Assembly (NCBI GenBank): GCA_020726205.1
Contig: DYTA01000018.1
Span: 1-14,547 of the forward strand
Source of the DNA: Nitrosospira multiformis
GTDB lineage: Bacteria > Pseudomonadota > Gammaproteobacteria > Burkholderiales > UBA11063
Direction of reading: 5' to 3'
Length of the DNA: 14,547 bases
Shown here: one piece after another, positions 3,504-13,804 of the stretch
Layout: each line of letters begins with the position of its first letter
How positions within the stretch are numbered: the stretch's first letter is position 1
Program-made: the position numbers and the translations under genes
The notes under the pieces: generated by a model
Seen by the model: the letters and a program-made list of their open reading frames with translations, nothing else
Told to the model about the DNA's origin: nothing
The model's database searches: none

Positions 3504-4556
3504 ATGCGCTTTTTATCAGCATTAGCTTGTGTTATTAGCTTTAGTTGTTTAAGTGCTTGTGTTACTAAAACAATTAATAGTGATGGAACAGTTCAAAATA
3601 ATATTGTGGATAAAAATAAACTATCAGATACTTACGTTGATTTAGCTGTAGAGTATCAGAAACATAATGCACCACAAGTGGCATTAGAGCGGGTTAATCT
3701 AGCTATTCAGACTTTACCTGATAATGCCAGAGCTTATATGATTAGAGCTATGATTTATCAACAATTAGGAAAAATAACTTTTGCAGAAAATGATTTCATT
3801 AAAGCTATTGATTTGAAGAGTAATTATTCTGAAGCATATGTTAATTACGCAGTATTTTTATGTGAAAATAAAAACTATGATAGTGCGTTAACTAATTTCA
3901 ATTTAGCACTAGAAAACCCATTGTACTATAATCCAGAAATAGGTTATTATAGCCGTGGTAGTTGTTTTTATAAACAAAATAAAATTGATTTAGCTAATGC
4001 CGATTTCCTTAAAGCGTTAAGTTATCGTAGTGCTCCACCTGATACTTATATTTCTTTAGCAAAATTGCAATTTGAGCAAAAAAACTATGCTTTAGCAAAT
4101 TTTTATTTAAGCAAGTTTAGTGGTTCACAAACACCATCAATTATGTGGCTACATATTCAAATTTTACAGGCTTTAATTGATAGTAATACTGACCCAATGA
4201 GAACACATGAGTATGTTTCTTATAGAAATACAATCGGTCAGCTATTGGTTTCTAATTATTCTAATACTCAAGAAGCACAAAAGTATTTAACTCGTTACGG
4301 TTCTCCTGCTCCATTTAAAAAAAATATGCTAAATCAAACAGCTAGTTTAAAACGTAGCAGTGTAATTAGCATACGTAAAGTGAGTTCTCAACCAGTTAGT
4401 CAGTCTAATTTAGTTCCTAATTACGTATATGTGAAATCAGGTGATACTTTATTTTCTATAGCAAATAAAAATAATACAACAGTTAAACAACTTGAGCAAA
4501 TTAATAAAATTAAATCTGCTAATATTAAAGCTGGTATGAAAATTTTTTTAAAATAA
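3504..4556 (+). CDS. pilW: PilW/PilF-like TPR lipoprotein with an extra C-terminal LysM domain
   Basis: By position (rlmN, this gene, ispG) and structure this is the type IV pilus biogenesis/stability lipoprotein called PilF in Pseudomonas and PilW in Neisseria, the outer-membrane pilotin that helps PilQ secretin assembly. A signal peptide ends in the lipobox LSAC, with lipidation expected at C19. TPR-like helical repeats fill about residues 42-260 (for example LAVEYQKHNAPQVALERVN). After a Ser/Gln-rich linker (about 275-305) comes a LysM domain at 307-350 (YVKSGDTLFSIA and GMKIFL), a peptidoglycan-binding fold. The family is usually about 250 residues; this is 350, and the excess is the linker plus LysM. 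GAGG at 3494-3497 supports the ATG at 3504. The 'pilus' role is inferred; no other pilus gene lies in the window. Confidence 0.8.
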   Translation: MRFLSALACVISFSCLSACVTKTINSDGTVQNNIVDKNKLSDTYVDLAVEYQKHNAPQVALERVNLAIQTLPDNARAYMIRAMIYQQLGKITFAENDFIKAIDLKSNYSEAYVNYAVFLCENKNYDSALTNFNLALENPLYYNPEIGYYSRGSCFYKQNKIDLANADFLKALSYRSAPPDTYISLAKLQFEQKNYALANFYLSKFSGSQTPSIMWLHIQILQALIDSNTDPMRTHEYVSYRNTIGQLLVSNYSNTQEAQKYLTRYGSPAPFKKNMLNQTASLKRSSVISIRKVSSQPVSQSNLVPNYVYVKSGDTLFSIANKNNTTVKQLEQINKIKSANIKAGMKIFLK

Positions 4557-4579
4557 TTAAATTTAAGTGAGATGTTACA

Positions 4580-5791
4580 ATGTATAGTCGACGTAAAACA
4601 TTAATAACAAATGTTGGTAATGTAAGAATAGGTGGTAATAATCCTATTGTGGTTCAATCAATGACCAATACTAATACAGAAAATGCGTTAGAAACAGCTT
4701 TACAAATTGCCGATTTGGCAAGAGCTGGCTCTGAAATTGTTAGAATTACTGTTAATACGTTAGCAGCTGGGGCTAAAGTACGTGAAATTTGTGAACGCTT
4801 AACTGATATGGGTATAAACGTACCAATTGTTGGAGATTTTCATTTTAATGGACACAAAATTCTGGCTGAGAATCCTGATTGTGCTAAATATTTAGCTAAA
4901 TATAGAATTAACCCTGGTAATATCGGTAAAGGTGCAAAGCGTGATGAACAATTTGCATATATGATTAATACAGCCAAGGAGTATAATAAGTCAGTTAGAA
5001 TTGGTGTTAATTGGGGATCTTTAGATCAACAATTATTAGCTAATATGTTAGATACAAATGCTCGACAAAGCCAACCGCACAGTCTTGAAGTTGTTATGCG
5101 TAAAGCGCTAGTTGAGTCTGCAATTCAAAGTGCCGATAAAGCGATTGAATTAGGATTACCTTCAGATAAAATTTTATTATCATGTAAAGTTAGTCATGTT
5201 CAAGATTTAGTTTTAGTGTATCGTGATTTAGCTAGTCGTTGTAACTTTCCATTGCATCTTGGTTTAACAGAGGCTGGGATGGGTGCTAAGGGAATTGTTG
5301 CTTCCACTGCTGCATTATCATTGATTCTACAAGATGGGATTGGTGATACTATACGTGTTTCACTAACTCCTAGACCTAATGAAAGTCGAGTACAAGAGGT
5401 TATAGTTGCGCAAGAAATATTACAATCATTAGGATTGAGATCTTTTGCACCTGTAGTAACCTCATGTCCTGGTTGTGGACGTACTTCAAGTGATTATTTT
5501 CAGCTATTAGCAGAAAAAATTCAAACCTACTTGAGAGATCAGATGCCATTATGGAAAATAAAATATCCAGGTGTTGAAGAAATGAAAGTTGCTGTTATGG
5601 GGTGTGTTGTAAATGGTCCAGGGGAGTCTAAGCTTGCTAATATTGGTATTAGTTTACCAGGAAGAGATGAGTCACCAGTTGCGCCTGTCTTTATTGATGG
5701 AGAAAAATCTGTCACATTAAAAGGTGATCATATCGCTGAAGAGTTTCAAGTAATTGTTGATAACTATGTTATGAAGAAATATAGTGCGTAA
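4580..5791 (+). CDS. ispG: IspG, 4-hydroxy-3-methylbut-2-enyl diphosphate synthase
   Basis: Iron-sulfur enzyme of the non-mevalonate (MEP) isoprenoid pathway, converting MEcPP to HMBPP. The protein is 403 residues. The N-terminal TIM-barrel part has the usual VQSMTNTNT start and NPGNIG segment. The C-terminal cluster domain carries C296 and C299 (SCPGCGRT) and C342 ([10 protein letters not shown]), the three [4Fe-4S] ligands; E349 is the expected fourth ligand or catalytic glutamate. AAGTGAG at about 4565-4571 supports the ATG at 4580. It lies 23 nt after the PilW-like gene, probably in the same transcript. In many relatives rodZ sits between these two genes; here there is no room for it. Confidence 0.97.
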
Positions 5792-5933
5792 ACTACTTTA
5801 TATAAGAGAGCAAGTTAGTGGCTGTTTTGATAATTTTTAACCTATAAGCTCAAATACAATTACGGAATAAAATTAATTGAAGTCAACCCACAGTACACTC
5901 CCTAAAATTATAATGAATTAAAATAGGTGAAAA
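5792..5933 (+). promoter_or_regulatory. ispG-hisS gap with candidate hisS promoter
   Basis: The longest gap in the window (142 nt) holds no reading frame I can support and no convincing terminator. A consensus -10 TATAAT lies at 5909-5914, overlapped on its left by TAAAAT (5903-5908). The nearest -35-like box, TTGAAG at 5877-5882, is 20 nt from TAAAAT and so too far to be ideal. A locally C-rich patch (5883-5902) stands out from the AT-rich background. The hisS ribosome binding site AGGTGA is at 5925-5930. Confidence 0.4.
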
Positions 5934-7208
5934 ATGAAAGAAAAAGCACAAAAAATAGTTGGTGTTAAAGGAATGAATGATTTGTTGCCAGGTGATTCAC
6001 ATCGCTGGTTGTGGTTAGAAAATAAATTCCATCTATGGTTGAAACAATATGGTTATGAAAATATTCGTACCCCAATTTTAGAAGATACTAAGCTATTTAC
6101 TCGATCTATTGGTGAAGTAACTGATATTGTTGAAAAAGAAATGTATAGTTTTATTGATAGCCTAAATGGTGATACTTTAACTATGCGTCCAGAAGGAACT
6201 GCGGGTACTTTACGGGCAGCAGTTGAACATAATTTATTATACAATGCAACACAAAAGCTTTGGTATATTGGGCCAATGTTTCGTCACGAACGCCCACAAA
6301 AAGGACGCTATCGCCAGTTTCATCAATTAGGTGTTGAGGCATTAGGATTTAAAGGACCTGATATTGATTGTGAAATAATTTTAATGCTAAATCATCTTTG
6401 GAAAATATTAGGATTAAAAAATATTGAATTACATATTAACTGTCTTGGAAATAAAGAAGAGCGAGCTATTCATCGTCAAGCGTTAATTGAATATTTTGAA
6501 CAATACGTTGATTTATTAGATGATGAAGCTAAACGTAGATTATATACTAATCCATTGCGTATTTTGGATACTAAAAATCCTGCATTACAAGAGTTAGTAA
6601 TGAATGCACCTAAATTAATTGATTGTTTGGATAATGATTCATTGTGCCATTATAATGGTTGGAAATCTGGGCTTGATGCTCTTGGGATTAATTATATCGA
6701 AAATCCACGTTTAGTTCGTGGACTAGATTATTATAATTTGTCAGTATTTGAATGGATTAGCAGTGATTTAGGTTCACAATCAACGGTTTGTGGTGGCGGT
6801 AGATATGATCCATTGGTTGCTGAATTAGGTGCAAAAGATAATTTTGCAATAGGTTATGCAATTGGCCTTGAACGTTTATTGCTTAGTTTAGATGCTCAAA
6901 ATTCTTTGCCAACTAAGCTAAGCCCAGATATCTTTATTGTTAATGAAGGAAATGGCACAGCTAGTTATGCGATGTTAATTGCTAATGAATTAAGAAAGTC
7001 AGGGTTTAATGTTGTTCAAAATTTAGGTGGGGGCAGTTTTAAATCTCAATTTAAAAAAGCAGATAACTCTGGTGCGCCAATTAGTATAGTAATTGGAGAA
7101 AACGAGGTTACAAATAGCCAAGTTGTGATAAAATTAATGGGTGAGCAGACTCAAGAGATTGTAAATTGCGATTTAATAGTAGAATATATTAGTAAAATTT
7201 TAAAATAG
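5934..7208 (+). CDS. hisS: Histidyl-tRNA synthetase
   Basis: Class II aminoacyl-tRNA synthetase that charges tRNA-His. The 424-residue length matches the E. coli enzyme as I recall it. Visible elements in order: the N-terminal [25 protein letters not shown] (83-95), part of the histidine/ATP site; class II motif 2 from [18 protein letters not shown] (116-133); the histidine-specific LVRGLDYYN (260-268); CGGGRYD (286-292); and motif 3 [11 protein letters not shown] (307-317). The C-terminal anticodon-binding domain covers roughly 330-424. AGGTGA at 5925-5930 supports the ATG. It appears to head a transcript that continues into yfgM, bamB and der. Confidence 0.97.
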
Positions 7209-7220
7209 CAGGGTATTTAG

Positions 7221-7853
7221 ATGGCACATTTTGATTTAAATGAACAAGAACAAATAGCAAATGTAAAATATTTTTGGCGTGATTGGGGTAAATATATTGT
7301 TGGTCTAGTGGCTATACTAATTATTGGTTATATTGGAAGCTCAATATATAATTGGCACCAGCAAAGCCAAGCTCAAGATGCAGCAAAAATATATGAAAAA
7401 TTTAGCGGTGCAATGACAAGTGGTAATACAAATTTAGTTTATTCTACTGCAGATAATTTGATGAGCAATTTACCTAAAACAGAATATACTGCAATGGCAA
7501 CTTTGCAAGCAGCAAAAATAGCTTTTGATAATAAAGATCTAGCTAAAGCAGAAAAATATTTAATTTGGACTAAAGAAAATGCTAGTGATAAATCTTTACA
7601 GAGTATAGCTATATTGAGATTAGCTAGTGTTTATATTGATCAAAATAAGTTTGATAAAGCTCGTGAAATGCTAAAAACAAAACATGATTTAGCTTTTGAT
7701 GGCTTATTTTATGAAGGTCGAGGTGATATGTATATTGCTCAAGATGATTTAGCTAAGGCACGTGATGCATACAAAGAGGGATTGCAAAAAGCAGCAAATG
7801 ATCCATCAACTCAGCAAGCTATTCAAATGAAATTAGATATAATTGGGGGTTAA
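7221..7853 (+). CDS. yfgM: YfgM-like tetratricopeptide membrane protein
   Basis: A 210-residue protein with a short cytosolic N-terminus (MAHFDLNEQEQIANVKYFW), one transmembrane helix at about 24-43, and a periplasmic region of TPR-like helices (for example LAKAEKYLIWTKENA and LAKARDAYKEGLQKA). In E. coli YfgM is an inner-membrane partner of PpiD and the Sec translocon and assists periplasmic chaperone traffic. The position between hisS and bamB is the conserved one. It starts 12 nt after hisS, with an AGGG-like ribosome binding site. Its last codons (Gly-Gly) also encode the ribosome binding site of bamB. Confidence 0.88.
   Translation: MAHFDLNEQEQIANVKYFWRDWGKYIVGLVAILIIGYIGSSIYNWHQQSQAQDAAKIYEKFSGAMTSGNTNLVYSTADNLMSNLPKTEYTAMATLQAAKIAFDNKDLAKAEKYLIWTKENASDKSLQSIAILRLASVYIDQNKFDKAREMLKTKHDLAFDGLFYEGRGDMYIAQDDLAKARDAYKEGLQKAANDPSTQQAIQMKLDIIGG
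7845..7849 (+). promoter_or_regulatory. bamB ribosome binding site inside yfgM
   Basis: A GGGGG run within the last Gly-Gly codons of yfgM lies 8 nt before a TTG at 7858. It supports that TTG as the bamB start rather than the in-frame TTG at 7843, which the G run itself follows. The overlap implies translational coupling of yfgM and bamB. Confidence 0.55.
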
Positions 7854-7857
7854 TCGA

Positions 7858-8997
7858 TTGTTTAAACGAATTTTACTAGTTTTAACCAGTGGTTTAGTAG
7901 CTACTGGTTTAATTTCTTGTGCTTCAGATAATTCACCTCAACCATTACCAATGCCAAAAATTAGTAATGAAGTAAAACTACAGCAAGGTTGGGTTCAGAG
8001 TAAATTAAATAATAGTGATGCAGGAAGCTTTGTTCCAACTATTTATGATAATGCTATTTTTACTGCTGATTTCGATGGTGATATTTATAAAATTGATCCT
8101 ACCGATGGTAGTATTATTAATCAATTTACTATTGATAAAAAGTTATCTAGCGGAGTTGGAGTTTCTACTAGTAACATTTTTGTAACTACTAAAGATTCTT
8201 TATTGATTGCTATTGATAAAGGAACTGGAAAAATTAAATGGCAAACCCCATTACCAACAATTTCTCTCGAAGCACCTCAAGCAACCAGTAATGTTGTAAT
8301 AGTAAGAACTAATGATGCTCAGGTTTTAGCTTTTGATACAGCAACTGGAGCTCCGCTTTGGGTATACCAAAAACCCATTCCTCCATTAACTTTACGGGTG
8401 CAAAATTCATTTTTAGTGATTGGTAATGAGGTTGTTGTGGTTGGGCTTCCTGGTGGTAAATTAGCGTTAATTAACTTGGTCAGTGGAACTCCAATTTGGG
8501 AAAATTATGTTGCAGTTCCTGAAGGATCAACTGACTTAGATAAGATTACAGATATAGGAATGAGACCTGTTTTAGATAATAAAACTCTCTATGTTGCCAC
8601 ATATAATGGTAAATTATCTTGTGTAGATGCGATGTCAAGTAATATTATTTGGCAGAAAAAATTTAGCACTACAAATGGAGTTGTTGTTGATGAACAAAAT
8701 GTTTATGCCGTTTCTCAAGATGGTATTGTTTATGCCTTTGATAAGGCAACTGGAGCTCAGGTATGGCAGAATAAAACACTGCAATATCGCTCTTTGAGTA
8801 CTCCTGCACTTGAAGGAAATGGTATACTAGTTGTAGATAATGATGGTTATGTTCATATGTTTAATCGAAATGATGGACATGAGATGGCAAGGGTAAGCAC
8901 GTATCTATTGTCTGGAATATCGCAACCTGTAACTCGTGATAGTGGTATTGTGTATCAATCTGCAAATGGATACCTTGTACAAATTAAAAATTATTAA
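7858..8997 (+). CDS. bamB: BamB, outer-membrane protein assembly lipoprotein
   Basis: Beta-propeller lipoprotein of the BAM complex, which inserts beta-barrel proteins into the outer membrane; it docks on BamA. From a TTG at 7858 it is 379 residues (E. coli about 392). The signal peptide ends in the lipobox LISC with lipidation expected at C21. The rest shows repeated PQQ-like propeller blades, each with a variant of 'AxDxxTGxxxW': for example [22 protein letters not shown] and [11 protein letters not shown]. An in-frame TTG at 7843 would overlap yfgM and add five residues, but then the signal sequence would start less typically. It begins 4 nt after yfgM and ends 8 nt before der; bamB-der is a conserved pair. 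Confidence 0.93.
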
Positions 8998-9005
8998 GGA
9001 AATTT

Positions 9006-10403
9006 ATGAAGCCTACAATCGCATTGGTTGGAAGACCAAATGTTGGCAAATCAACGTTATTTAATCGTTTAACTAGAAGTAGAGATGCTTTAGTTGCTGA
9101 TTTTCCAGGGTTGACTCGAGATCGTCATTATGGAATAGGTCGTATTGGTCACAAGCCATATATTTTGGTTGACACGGGTGGTTTTGAACCATTGATAGAA
9201 AGTGGTGTAATGCTTGAAATGGCTCGTCAGTCAGAACAGGCTACTTACGAAGCTGATGCAGTAATTTTTATGGTTGATGGTCGTAATGGAATGACTCCAC
9301 AAGATCGGTTAATTGCTAATAAGCTGCGGACATTGAATAAACCTATTTATGTTGCTATTAATAAAGTTGAAGGTGTTGATAAAGTTATTGCAATTAGTGA
9401 CTTTTATGAACTTGGACTTGAAAATATGTATCCTCTTTCAGCAACACATGGTGATGGAGTGCATAAGCTTATTGATGATGTATTACGTGGTTTTAAAAAT
9501 GTAACTGACGACGAAGAACAATCAGATAAAATTACTTTTGCAGTGATAGGATGACCAAATGTTGGTAAATCCACATTGGTTAATACTATCTTGGGAGAGG
9601 AGCGAGTTATCGCTTTTGATGAAGCAGGTACAACAAGAGATAGTATTTATATTGACTTTGAGCGTAACGATAAGAAGTTTACAATTATTGATACCGCAGG
9701 TATTCGTCGTAAAGGTAAAGTAACAGATAAGCTAGAAAAATATTCAGTATTAAAAGCCATTCAAGCAATCAGTGAAGCAAATGTTGTTGTACTAGTTTTA
9801 GATGCTCATTTGGATATAGCAGAACAAGATGCTACAATTGTTGGGTATGCGCTTGAAGCTGGTAAATCGATTGTTGTTGCCATTAATAAATGGGATCATT
9901 TGGATGATGAACAAAGGCAAAAAATTAAAGATGATGTAAAAGAAAAATTACATTTCTTAGATTTTGCTAAATATTGTTATATTTCTGCACTTTACAAAAA
10001 AGGTACGAATGATCTACTTGATTCAATTAGTGCTGCTTATACTTCAGCTTTTGTGAAGTTTTCAACACCTAAATTAACTAGAGTTTTAAAAGAGGCTGTA
10101 AATCGCCAGCCTCCAACTCATAAAGGTAATTTTAGACCTAAAATGCGTTATGCGCATCAAGGTGGTTCAAATCCACCTATTGTAGTAATTCATGGAAATA
10201 GTTTATTATCCGTACAAAAGGCTTATACAAAATATTTGGAGCGCTCTTTTAGAAAAGTCTTTGATTTAGTAGGTACACCGCTAAGAATTGAATACAAAAA
10301 CAGCGAAAATCCATTTGATGATAAAAAAGAAGAATATATTAAACCAGGGTTATTACAGCGTCAGAAAATAAAAAATAAAGCTGAAAATAGGTATAAAAAA
10401 TAA
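9006..10403 (+). CDS. der: Der (EngA) ribosome-biogenesis GTPase, interrupted by one in-frame TGA
   Basis: Double-GTPase needed for 50S subunit maturation and essential in the bacteria where it has been tested. The frame is continuous over 465 codons except for TGA at codon 183. Before it lies G domain 1: GRPNVGKST (9-17), DTGG, and NKVE, where E instead of D is a form I associate with betaproteobacteria. After it comes G domain 2, beginning mid P-loop (P-N-V-G-K-S), then [13 protein letters not shown] and NKWD. The KH-like C-terminal domain ([10 protein letters not shown] to VVIHGN) follows. Both parts are intact, with no frameshift. A separate downstream product could start at the TTG at 9576, but it would lack the P-loop, so a functional split protein is unlikely. 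AAGGA at 8996-9000 supports the ATG. Sequencing error, a real nonsense mutation, or readthrough remain open. Confidence 0.92.
9552..9554 (+). other. In-frame TGA replacing the arginine of the second Der P-loop
   Basis: The codons read GGA-TGA-CCA-AAT-GTT-GGT-AAA, i.e. G-stop-P-N-V-G-K, where the family has G-R-P-N-V-G-K. The first P-loop of the same gene (9030-9046) is nearly identical in DNA and has AGA here. The change is one base away from AGA (A to T) or CGA (C to T). The next base is C, giving UGAC, known in E. coli as a leaky termination context. Confidence 0.9.
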
Positions 10404-10576
10404 TGAAAATATTAAAGTTTATTTTGATTTGGGGTGTTCTATCTGTACTATTATCAAGCATTAGTGCGTGTGCGAGCTATCAAACTGAAATGAATAATCC
10501 TTTACCTAATGAGCATGATGTGCCTGTTGATCAAACAATGCCTGCAAATGATGATTCTTCGGTTAGTCTGGATTAA
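10403..10576 (+). CDS. Small putative lipoprotein (57 residues), function unknown
   Basis: The ATG overlaps the last base of the der stop codon (TAATG). The protein starts [11 protein letters not shown], has a hydrophobic signal core, and a lipobox ISAC that would place a lipidated cysteine at residue 23. The mature part is only 35 residues, polar and acidic (several Asp/Glu), with prolines and no predicted fold. I do not recognise a family; it lacks the CGLKGPLY-type motif of LptM/YifL. Its overlap with der indicates translational coupling. The protein is too small for many gene finders but has a complete signal peptide and lipobox, which is unlikely by chance. It is probably the last gene of the hisS transcript. 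Confidence 0.7.
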   Translation: MKILKFILIWGVLSVLLSSISACASYQTEMNNPLPNEHDVPVDQTMPANDDSSVSLD

Positions 10577-10905: not shown

Positions 10906-12072
10906 ATGACAGAAGATATACTATCCAAAGAAAAACCAAGCGCTGTTTTAGTAGCAATAAATATAGATCATAATTTAGATTTTGACGAGGATGTAGCGGA
11001 AGCTGTTTCACTTGCCGAGTCATATGGTTATAAAATATTACAGGTTATTACAGCTAATCGTGCTCGTCCAGATCCACATTATTTTGTAGGAAGTGGTAAA
11101 TTAGATGAAATAAAAACTATTTGCGACTCATTAAAACCTAAAGTATTATTAATTAATCATAATATAATGCCTGTACAAGAAAGAAATTTAGATCGCATTT
11201 TAACTGATATAAGAATTGTTGACCGTACCCAGTTAATTTTAGATATTTTTGCGGCTAGAGTTACAACTAATGAAGGTATTTTGCAAATAGAACTGGCTCA
11301 ACAATCATATTTAGCAACTAGACTTGTTCGTCGTTGGACTCATTTAGAGCGTCAACGTGGTGGTTATGGTATGACAGGTGGTCCAGGTGAGAAGCAAATT
11401 GAACTAGATAAAAGGGCAATAGCAGATAAAATTGTAAAACTTAGACGTAGACTTGATGCGATTGTGAAGCAAAGAGATACTCAGCGCAAATCTCGTTTAA
11501 AAAACGGTATGAATTCTGTTTCTATTGTCGGTTATACTAATGCTGGTAAATCAACCTTGTTTAATGCTTTAACTAAGGCTAATGTGTATGCAGAAGATCG
11601 CTTGTTTGCGACATTACAAACAACCTCTCGTCATTTATTTTTAGCAGAGAATAATGAGATAGTTATTTCTGATACAGTAGGTTTTATTCGTGATTTGCCA
11701 GCTAAATTAGTTGCTGCTTTCAGAGCAACATTAGAGGAAACTGTACATGCTAATTTATTATTACAAGTTGTTGATATGTCACACTCAACTAGAGAGAGAC
11801 ATATTACAGATGTTAATAATGTATTAAAAGATATTGATGCTGATGGTATTCCTCAATTGATAGTTTATAATAAGATTGATTTGGTAGATGAGATTGAACC
11901 TCATATTGAATATAATGACCTAGGTCAGCCTATTGCAGTTTTTCTTTCTGCTCAAAATAATTTAGGTCTTAATCTATTAAGACAAGCAATTATAGAAAAA
12001 TTAACTGATATAAATGCAACTAATACTCAAAAACAACAGGATCTAGTTTATGAACCATGGAAAATACGATAA
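10906..12072 (+). CDS. hflX: HflX ribosome-associated GTPase
   Basis: GTPase that binds the 50S subunit and can split stalled or heat-stressed ribosomes. The 388-residue protein has the N-terminal HflX domain (for example VGSGKLDEIK, 61-70), the conserved linker GGPGEKQIELDKR (158-170), then the G domain: G1 GYTNAGKST (209-217), G3 DTVGF (256-260) and G4 NKID (322-325). There is no good Shine-Dalgarno sequence in the 3 nt after hfq or just inside its end, so translation is probably coupled to hfq. Its last 23 nt overlap the start of hflK. The hfq-hflX pair is conserved across proteobacteria. Confidence 0.96.
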   Translation: MTEDILSKEKPSAVLVAINIDHNLDFDEDVAEAVSLAESYGYKILQVITANRARPDPHYFVGSGKLDEIKTICDSLKPKVLLINHNIMPVQERNLDRILTDIRIVDRTQLILDIFAARVTTNEGILQIELAQQSYLATRLVRRWTHLERQRGGYGMTGGPGEKQIELDKRAIADKIVKLRRRLDAIVKQRDTQRKSRLKNGMNSVSIVGYTNAGKSTLFNALTKANVYAEDRLFATLQTTSRHLFLAENNEIVISDTVGFIRDLPAKLVAAFRATLEETVHANLLLQVVDMSHSTRERHITDVNNVLKDIDADGIPQLIVYNKIDLVDEIEPHIEYNDLGQPIAVFLSAQNNLGLNLLRQAIIEKLTDINATNTQKQQDLVYEPWKIR

Positions 12073-13093
12073 ATCATCTTCTAATAGTATAATCGATCGT
12101 TTGAACCATTGGTTAGGTAAGCTTATGGGAAAGAAATCACTAAAGAATCAAATAATTTATCATAAGCAACATAATCAAATGCCTAGCAATACAAAATTTA
12201 GTATTATTTTTGTGTTAATGGCAATATTTTTATGGTTATTAACTGGTTTATACTATGTTCCTGATGCTAGTTATGGATTAATTTTTAAACGTGGTGAAAT
12301 AAATAAAGTTGTTTCAGGGATGACTATTGGTGTTTCTGCACCGTATCCATTTTCATCAGTTGAACTTATTGATGCAGATAAAAATATAATTAATTTTGGA
12401 CAAGAAAGTAGCAATTCAACTATCTTAGTAACTAAAAATAATATGAATTTAAAAGTATCTGGTGTTATTATTTATCATGTTATTGATCCAAAGAAATATT
12501 TTATTAATTTTTATCAAGAGACTAATGATTTAGATCAAAAAGTTGAATGGTTAACTGTGACGCAGATTCAAAATTACTTTTTAATGCATGACTCATCTCA
12601 GTTATTGACGACTAGTAATTCAGATATGCTTTCTAAAATTTTGGAAACGAGTAATTTATTTTTTGCTAAGTATGGAATAGCTATTGATCAGATTAAAAAT
12701 GTAGCAATTTCTAAAGATACTACAAATTTTAAAATGATTCAACCATTAAATAGTGAATCAAGTTCAATTATAATAGATCAAGCATATGATTATGCAAAAT
12801 TTATAGAAAATAGAACTCAACATATAACAACGGATTTTAATTATTTATTGCCTCAATATCAAGCAAATAAAACTGCTATTACAGAGTTATTATATTATAA
12901 ATTATTGAGTACATTACCTAAAGAATCAAATCTTATGGAGTCTTATCCTTTATTAAATTTAACTGAATCTCAATTTATTCTGTTTTGTAATAATACAAAT
13001 AGTACTAGTTTAAGTGAAATTCAACAAAGTAGTCAAATTGGACGAAACTTAAATCGAACCGTCGATCGTCAACGTGAATTTAGGAGTCGTTAG
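12050..13093 (+). CDS. hflK: HflK, FtsH-modulating SPFH membrane protein (divergent, shortened)
   Basis: Together with HflC, HflK forms an SPFH-domain cage in the periplasm that encloses the FtsH protease and modulates its proteolysis. The 347-residue protein has a cytosolic N-terminus lacking the usual Gly-rich tract, one transmembrane helix at about 50-70, then an SPFH domain (YYVPDASYGLIFKRGEIN, later YHVIDPKKYF). The C-terminal half keeps FNYLLPQYQ (matching the family's LLPEY) and ends in the usual Arg-rich tail. The helix between the SPFH domain and LLPQY is about 25-30 residues shorter than in E. coli HflK as I recall it. ACAGGAT at about 12035-12041 supports the ATG, which overlaps hflX by 23 nt. 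Identity rests on synteny plus these blocks, as the sequence is divergent. Confidence 0.88.
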   Translation: MNHGKYDKSSSNSIIDRLNHWLGKLMGKKSLKNQIIYHKQHNQMPSNTKFSIIFVLMAIFLWLLTGLYYVPDASYGLIFKRGEINKVVSGMTIGVSAPYPFSSVELIDADKNIINFGQESSNSTILVTKNNMNLKVSGVIIYHVIDPKKYFINFYQETNDLDQKVEWLTVTQIQNYFLMHDSSQLLTTSNSDMLSKILETSNLFFAKYGIAIDQIKNVAISKDTTNFKMIQPLNSESSSIIIDQAYDYAKFIENRTQHITTDFNYLLPQYQANKTAITELLYYKLLSTLPKESNLMESYPLLNLTESQFILFCNNTNSTSLSEIQQSSQIGRNLNRTVDRQREFRSR

Positions 13094-13096
13094 AGT

Positions 13097-13804
13097 ATGC
13101 GTATTTTATTATTACTATTTATACTTTTATTTGGGTTTGGTGCATCTGGTTTTTTTATTGTTGATGAGCATGAGTTTGCTGTAATTTCATTTGATAATAA
13201 TATGCAAGTTTTTGATTCTGGATTACATTGGAAGTTTCCGTTTTATGGTGATTTGACTTATGTTTATTCAAACCAACGCAATTCAGATATTTCTACGACT
13301 AATACAATTAGATTAAAAGATGGCTCTCAATATATAGCAGAAATTAATATGGTTTGGAAGGTGTATCAAGTACAAAATTATATGAAATATATACAATCTA
13401 ATTCAATGAAGCAGTTTGCAATTGACTTGTCGCAAGATATAGAGTCTAAGGTTTTATTAGTTGCAAAAAACTCTACAAGTAGTACTGATTTTATGCAAAA
13501 ATTATCTACGCAAAGTAAATATTTATTATCAAATAAAGGTATAGAAATTTTATCAATTAACATAACATCTATTAAATTTGTTGATAATAAAAATCAAATT
13601 ATAAAAATGATGAGCGCAGAAAGTAGTTATCAATTTGCGCAACAAGTAAAATTAACAGCTGAAAATAAGCAAAATCAACAACTAAATGTTCTGAAACAAA
13701 AAAATATTGATTTTTTTAATTTTTATATGAAAATAAATCAACTTGAACAAACAGCACGAATTAAACAAGACGTACCACCACTGAGTGCTATTTATCAACA
13801 ATAA
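13097..13804 (+). CDS. hflC: HflC, FtsH-modulating SPFH membrane protein (divergent, short)
   Basis: Partner of HflK in the FtsH regulatory cage. At 235 residues it is much shorter than E. coli HflC (about 334) or other betaproteobacterial forms (near 290). An N-terminal signal-anchor (about 2-22) is followed by [13 protein letters not shown] (start of the SPFH domain) and GLHWKFPF, a strong family hallmark. The C-terminus keeps [14 protein letters not shown], aligning with the family's DFYAF-type segment. The helix between IKFVD and DFFNF is about 30 residues shorter than in E. coli. TAGGAGT (13081-13087) inside the end of hflK supports the ATG, 3 nt after hflK. The frame is open throughout, so the short length is not a frameshift. 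Confidence 0.88.

Follow-up and report, generated by a model that had tools for sequence, protein, structure and literature searches.

The window, i.e. the whole stretch of 14,547 nucleotides that was analysed, is an entire contig (C83). The draft genome to which it belongs comprises 126 contigs with 1,042,198 bases in total and is rated 69% complete with 2% contamination. The window has a G+C content of 31.7% and carries a der (engA) gene on the forward strand, whose reading frame contains an in-frame TGA. The nearest named locus belongs to the MAG 'Neisseriales bacterium UBA11063' and is 87% identical over the 3' piece of der, while the next named matches do not exceed 63%. The source is therefore probably a betaproteobacterium that is AT-rich and uncultured. 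Nine genes of the window and the partial pgi gene at the contig end were compared with the NCBIfam models at an E-value limit of 1e-40. Matches covering most of the family were obtained for leucyl aminopeptidase, Ndk, RlmN, IspG, HisS, BamB and HflX; for leucyl aminopeptidase, the best model is matched from position 69 of 496 and another one from position 31 of 492. PilW is matched by residues 9-228 of a protein of 350 aa. The TPR protein encoded downstream of hisS (210 aa) matched general TPR models only. The gene called hfq, a name given by eye, encodes an 85-aa protein that had no NCBIfam match at 1e-40. The putative hflK and hflC genes (12050-13804) are very divergent, HflK matching its model with an E value of 4.3e-06 and HflC having no match at 1e-6. 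The names of hflK, hflC and the TPR protein are putative and rest on gene order. Moreover, an unlisted open reading frame (10403-10576) for a lipoprotein-like protein of 57 aa with the lipobox-like motif LLSSISAC directly follows der, its ATG overlapping the TAA of der (TAATG).

A plasmid search and a scan of viral contigs yielded nothing useful for the question of the TGA. Four contigs from the viral collection (L145-L148) contain matches to 245-251 residues of the 3' piece of Der, with identities of 32-37%. The initial annotation had also proposed to look for a second der copy; none was found in the 69%-complete draft, and the remaining matches are other GTPases.

The der reading frame and its internal TGA

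The frame of der extends from the ATG at 9006-9008 to the terminal TAA at 10401-10403, and the TGA at 9552-9554 is the only in-frame stop within it, as had been described in the initial annotation. The 5' part (9006-9554) encodes the first G domain and the linker, together 182 aa, and is terminated by the TGA; it matches positions 1-182 of the Der model TIGR03594 with an E value of 1.1e-62. The 3' part (9555-10403) encodes the remainder of the second G domain and the KH domain, is open up to the TAA and matches positions 184-432 of the 432 positions of the same model (E value 1.1e-93). The TGA occupies the place of the residue next to the first glycine of the second P-loop (GxPNVGKS). Only if the one TGA is read through does the gene match TIGR03594 over its full length (positions 1-432), with a score of 545.8 bits (cut-off 306.7); owing to the TGA at 9552-9554, der does not form a single uninterrupted reading frame. 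The gene resembles other genes for Der/EngA double-domain GTPases in encoding two G domains and a KH domain, with the motifs on either side of the stop preserved, and in the gene order hisS-(TPR protein)-bamB-der. It differs from them by the one in-frame TGA at the second P-loop. The whole-genome record carries the identical TGA, which gives no independent support because the record is the same assembly.

A truncated Der ending at codon 182 would be devoid of the KH domain and of nearly all of the second G domain. A split gene that restarts at the TTG at 9576-9578, with which a listed open reading frame begins 3' of the TGA, could be rejected because the predicted product of 275 aa would have no P-loop, in agreement with the earlier remark on this codon. 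The ATG at 9551 shares bases with the TGA but is in another frame, which reaches a stop after five codons.

It had also been noticed that the DNA stretches for the first and the second P-loop (9030-9046 and 9549-9565) are identical in 16 of 17 bases, which holds true. Over 60 bases, the agreement drops to 40, and the two stretches are therefore one motif coded twice rather than a duplicated block of DNA.

The second P-loop in relatives and selection on der

A match of the Der kind (E value of 1e-70 or better) was obtained in 53 of the 60 relatives that were searched, and the comparison of der in close relatives that had been recommended could be carried out. The P-loops were read in the loci L007-L035, of which L021 and L022 stop short of the second P-loop. 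In all 27 loci that reach it, the second P-loop reads GRPN[VA]GKS, with arginine and no stop at the site; 14 of these loci are from the same genus, and the 13 others are from other families of the order. The remaining genomes of the order, including G042 with two TGA and G031 with one TAG flagged inside the match, lie outside this reading. Thus, the P-loop arginine that the initial annotation had called invariant is kept in the Der genes that were read, but other GTPases vary at this position; HflX of the window itself, for instance, reads GYTNAGKS. In each of the 14 full-length der genes from same-genus relatives, a single frame of 439-464 aa runs through the two P-loops, and the stops flagged inside some of the matches lie off the site. 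The arginine codon at the second P-loop is CGN in nine and AGR in five of these 14 loci, and the clade that is nearest in the tree uses CGN only. For this reason, the first P-loop is no guide to the ancestral codon, and the idea that the TGA replaced an AGA as found there is unsupported.

Among 22 genomes of the same genus, 14 contain a full-length der that is open at the site, two contain a der cut by contig ends and six yield none; G028 of the same order also yields no der. In the two drafts with a cut der (G004 and G021), the contigs break inside the gene about 25 codons past the site, at the conserved AGTTRDS stretch. These breaks lie at the end of G004:C19 (L176), the start of G004:C65 (L185) and the end of G021:C1 (L177), and the end of G004:C19 has an A-rich tail that codes for poly-lysine. 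A further contig of G004 reads GRPNVGKS at the second P-loop. From the fact that two related drafts break in der near the site, we do not claim a cause for a base error. In G008, contig C16 (L202) carries at 4548-8337, after bamB, a gene for a 541-aa protein and an open reading frame judged by eye to be transposase-like; in relatives, this is the place of der.

The six drafts without der, one of which (G005) is rated 98% complete, could suggest that der is under loss in this lineage and that the stop is an early step towards a pseudogene. However, the contigs of G005 and G017 break off within bamB and do not extend to der, no match to hisS or hflX was obtained at an E value of 1e-40 for G001, G018 and G020, and G008 is only 52% complete and has different neighbours. 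Moreover, a full-length der has been kept in 14 genomes, and der of the window shows no relaxed selection. A gene on its way to loss is thus so improbable an explanation that it hardly needs to be considered.

Strong purifying selection acts on both halves of der, neither of which shows signs of decay. When the halves were aligned separately, the dN/dS ratios relative to the nearest relatives G011 and G002 were 0.032-0.036 for the first and 0.043-0.051 for the second half; these ratios are rough because the synonymous distances to the nearest relatives amount to 1.5-2.1. The ratios relative to more distant relatives range from 0.036 to 0.111, with that of the second half relative to G016 not being computable because the synonymous sites are saturated, and pairs of relatives give 0.008-0.101. 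At columns that are invariant in the 14 relatives, der of the window departs from the common residue at none of 83 columns before the stop and at one of 137 after it (F to Y). Furthermore, neutral drift since the appearance of the stop is rejected in either half for a distance of 0.02 (P values of 0.023 and 0.013) and is not rejected for a distance of 0.01 (P values of 0.15 and 0.18). Therefore, the stop is either very young or absent in the cell. Neither relaxed selection nor further lesions as expected for a pseudogene were observed, and the earlier view that the gene has not been decaying is borne out by the dN/dS ratios, the conserved columns and the drift test.

UGA as a stop codon and the possible hairpin at the site

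An in-frame UGA that would have to be read as an amino acid could also point to a genome in which UGA is reassigned or suppressed, be it by loss of RF2, by a tRNA with a UCA anticodon, by an unusual tRNA-Trp or by selenocysteine. Two observations would fit this explanation. The 13 gene ends tallied in the window include no TGA, the internal one of der left aside, and prfB was not found above the cut-off in the 69%-complete draft, the single match there being RF1. However, the tally of a larger sample argues against it. This sample consists of the window and 11 further stretches of the same genome (191,931 bases in total), which lie on contigs picked via earlier matches and not randomly, and the open reading frames of at least 120 aa in it were chosen greedily without large overlaps (n=155). 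They end with TAA in 118, TAG in 24 and TGA in 13 cases including der; in the 192 kb, TGA seldom serves as a stop, terminating 12 of the 154 frames other than der. Behind each of these 12 TGA ends, the frame stays open for no more than 28 codons. A scan of nine of the 12 frames showed that eight finish at or close to the end of a known family and one had no match; the families are FtsZ, an asparaginase, a murein transglycosylase, the CCA enzyme, RsmG, UvrC, MlaA and the ribosomal protein L17 (rplQ). Since TGA closes conserved genes, UGA is a working stop here, and a changed genetic code could be rejected given that TGA terminates ftsZ, rplQ, uvrC, rsmG and others. Moreover, 23 of 26 genomes contain prfB above the cut-off, and the completeness of the other three is only 52-69%, which leaves a loss of RF2 unsupported.

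The tRNAs do not argue for a special reading of UGA either. The draft gave 16 tRNA matches, of which 15 are over the cut-off, and ARAGORN was applied to 13 of the 16 loci, the other three overlapping with scanned loci. No UCA anticodon was present among the tRNAs read from these 13 loci of the 69%-complete draft; L050 and L051 gave no tRNA, L050 being an Rfam match that ARAGORN failed to recognise. The suppressor tRNA considered in the initial annotation was therefore not seen among the tRNAs read, with the reservation that the draft gave only 16 tRNA matches in all. A tRNA-Sec over the cut-off was absent from all 15 genus members (the own draft G000, which is incomplete, and 14 same-genus genomes); it was detected in four of the 23 genomes searched, none of them among these 15, and weaker matches occur in all 23. 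In bacteria, a UGA codon for selenocysteine is accompanied by a hairpin, the SECIS element. The UGA of der likewise forms the foot of a possible RNA hairpin of 12 pairs (9552-9582, forward strand). In contrast to a SECIS element, however, the hairpin is not tied to a UGA in the relatives, which have arginine and not cysteine at the site, and selenocysteine is unlikely in view of the absence of a tRNA-Sec over the cut-off from the 15 genus members searched, among them the incomplete own draft.

A bacterial tRNA-Trp with an anticodon stem of 4 bp is reported to read UGA (PMC13092985). An in-frame UGA in der that would have to be read as an amino acid would resemble this natural readthrough. However, the tRNA-Trp that a pattern search identified in six of ten genus members has the anticodon CCA and a full anticodon stem of 5 bp in all six (determined with ARAGORN in two relatives and by eye in four); the tRNA-Trp of the own, 69%-complete draft was not found by this pattern. 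A tRNA-Trp with a short stem was rejected because of the normal stems in the six relatives. Taken together, reassignment or suppression of UGA in this genome is already largely refuted and must be regarded as extremely unlikely.

The initial annotation had also considered a deliberate, UGA-dependent control of the Der level, and the hairpin could assist such a programmed readthrough. The 80 nt from the TGA onwards have a folding energy of -24.1 kcal/mol with z scores of -3.96 (200 shuffles) and -3.19 (100 shuffles), and the equivalent 80 nt of the 14 same-genus relatives have z scores of 0.83 to -2.24. Among the 674 sense-strand windows of 80 nt in the contig (60 shuffles each), ten have a z score of -3 or lower and none reaches -3.96. 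Furthermore, the base after the TGA is a C, and UGAC is a leaky context in E. coli. However, none of the 27 relatives read has a UGA at the site, and weaker hairpins occur at the equal place in some relatives without the stop. Five of the 14 same-genus relatives share the 12 pairs in part (G003 eight, G022 five, G013 and G014 three each and G002 two), and the other nine share none. The coding sequence alone therefore tends to form a hairpin at the P-loop site, the one of the own genome being stronger than those of the relatives and extending to the TGA. The TGA also lies inside the stem, which the ribosome would already have opened upon reading the codon, and the hairpin is a single stretch that was tested post hoc. 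Neither the stop (absent in 27 of 27 loci) nor the structure (pairs shared in five of 14) is conserved as would be expected for programmed readthrough. UGA-dependent control of Der is thus very unlikely, and the hairpin is best treated as a curiosity that is not counted as evidence of control. It would be fainter still a prospect that in this one species readthrough of the UGA and a hairpin strengthened in the lineage set the Der level, with the accuracy of termination metering a GTPase of ribosome assembly.

A probable consensus error or possible young nonsense mutation

The TGA is probably a single-base consensus error in a draft of low completeness, and der, which is presumably essential, is normal in all other respects. 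If so, the organism would make an ordinary full-length Der. The quality of the draft (126 contigs, 69% completeness), the arginine in the 14 full-length der genes of the genus as well as in 13 of 13 loci of other families, and the dN/dS ratios of the gene relative to its nearest relatives (0.032-0.051), which fall within the range of the relatives (0.008-0.101), argue for this explanation. While the stop in the assembly, the lack of decay, the function of UGA as a stop and the open genes of the relatives are observations, the wrong base is what we infer from them as most likely.

To put the TGA into perspective, the 155 open reading frames were scanned for genes split by in-frame stops. Such a split is recognised only if the stop is preceded by at least 120 aa and followed by at least 50, and the scan was confined to stops as opposed to frameshifts. 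At least 50 open codons follow in frame in 20 of the 155 cases. The scan of the downstream pieces covered 18 cases besides der and the hflK-hflC junction. Of these pieces, 14 match a family of their own from its start or close to it, the match of a copper ATPase beginning at position 98 of 838, and four had no match. Thus, a split by an in-frame stop could be demonstrated for der alone in the 192 kb, with four candidate pieces having no match. Of the possible coding substitutions in the window, 5.3% (2052 of 38430) create a stop, so that one case corresponds to about 19 errors in the 192 kb or roughly one in 10,000. Such a rate is plausible for a thinly covered draft. However, a consensus of short reads is usually better than one error in 10,000, which counts against an error, as does the hairpin at the TGA, which is unusual for the contig in view of the ten among 674 windows mentioned above.

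A cause for such an error was not found. Compared with the 14 same-genus loci, der of the window has no identical stretch of at least 13 bases that includes position 9552, while matching 17-mers and one 19-mer begin at 9553. In terms of DNA identity, der is closest to G002 (0.81) and G011 (0.80) at 9402-9551, to G016 and G019 (0.81 each; G011 0.75) at 9555-9704 and again to G002 (0.80) at 9801-10400. The region 9555-9800 is nearer to G016 and G019, and its flanks are nearer to G002 and G011, which may reflect recombination, rate variation or a join. The nearest relative switches several times along der and the differences are small, so that a chimeric join at the site of the TGA is at most a possibility.

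Alternatively, the TGA could be a genuine and very recent nonsense variant in a part or most of the population, which would be tolerated by low-level readthrough with a near-cognate tRNA or as a short-lived load. In favour of this, UGA is generally the leakiest stop codon. The lack of decay so far is also compatible with a recent mutation, as a neutral distance of 0.01 is tolerated and only one of 0.02 is rejected. However, the same P-loop change in either G domain of the E. coli Der is reported to cause a severe growth defect (PMC3466195). Another study that is quoted there found both G domains to be needed at 30 degrees and either of them to be dispensable at 42 degrees (PMC3466195). Judged from the E. 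coli P-loop mutants, which grow very poorly, the loss of the second G domain together with the KH domain should be very harmful. Moreover, the base in a consensus should be that of the majority allele, which is hard to square with such harm. A recent nonsense variant is thus conceivable but rather unlikely. The initial annotation had placed a base error first and a recent nonsense mutation second, and both explanations survive in this order. In a literature search, no paper matched all the terms on stop codons and assembly errors in MAGs, and a search that required companion topics, with papers bearing only the name outside its scope, retrieved no paper naming UBA11063.

The TGA in der thus most likely goes back to a sequence error or a very recent mutation, as opposed to a novel mode of decoding; nothing that was tested supports recoding, and little supports control by UGA. 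If the TGA is an error, the locus calls for caution, because one wrong base in a draft is sufficient to make an essential gene look broken. If, on the other hand, the TGA is real and fixed, der would be a rare case of an essential gene that lives on the readthrough of a stop codon, and the organism would provide a natural test of how accurate termination has to be.
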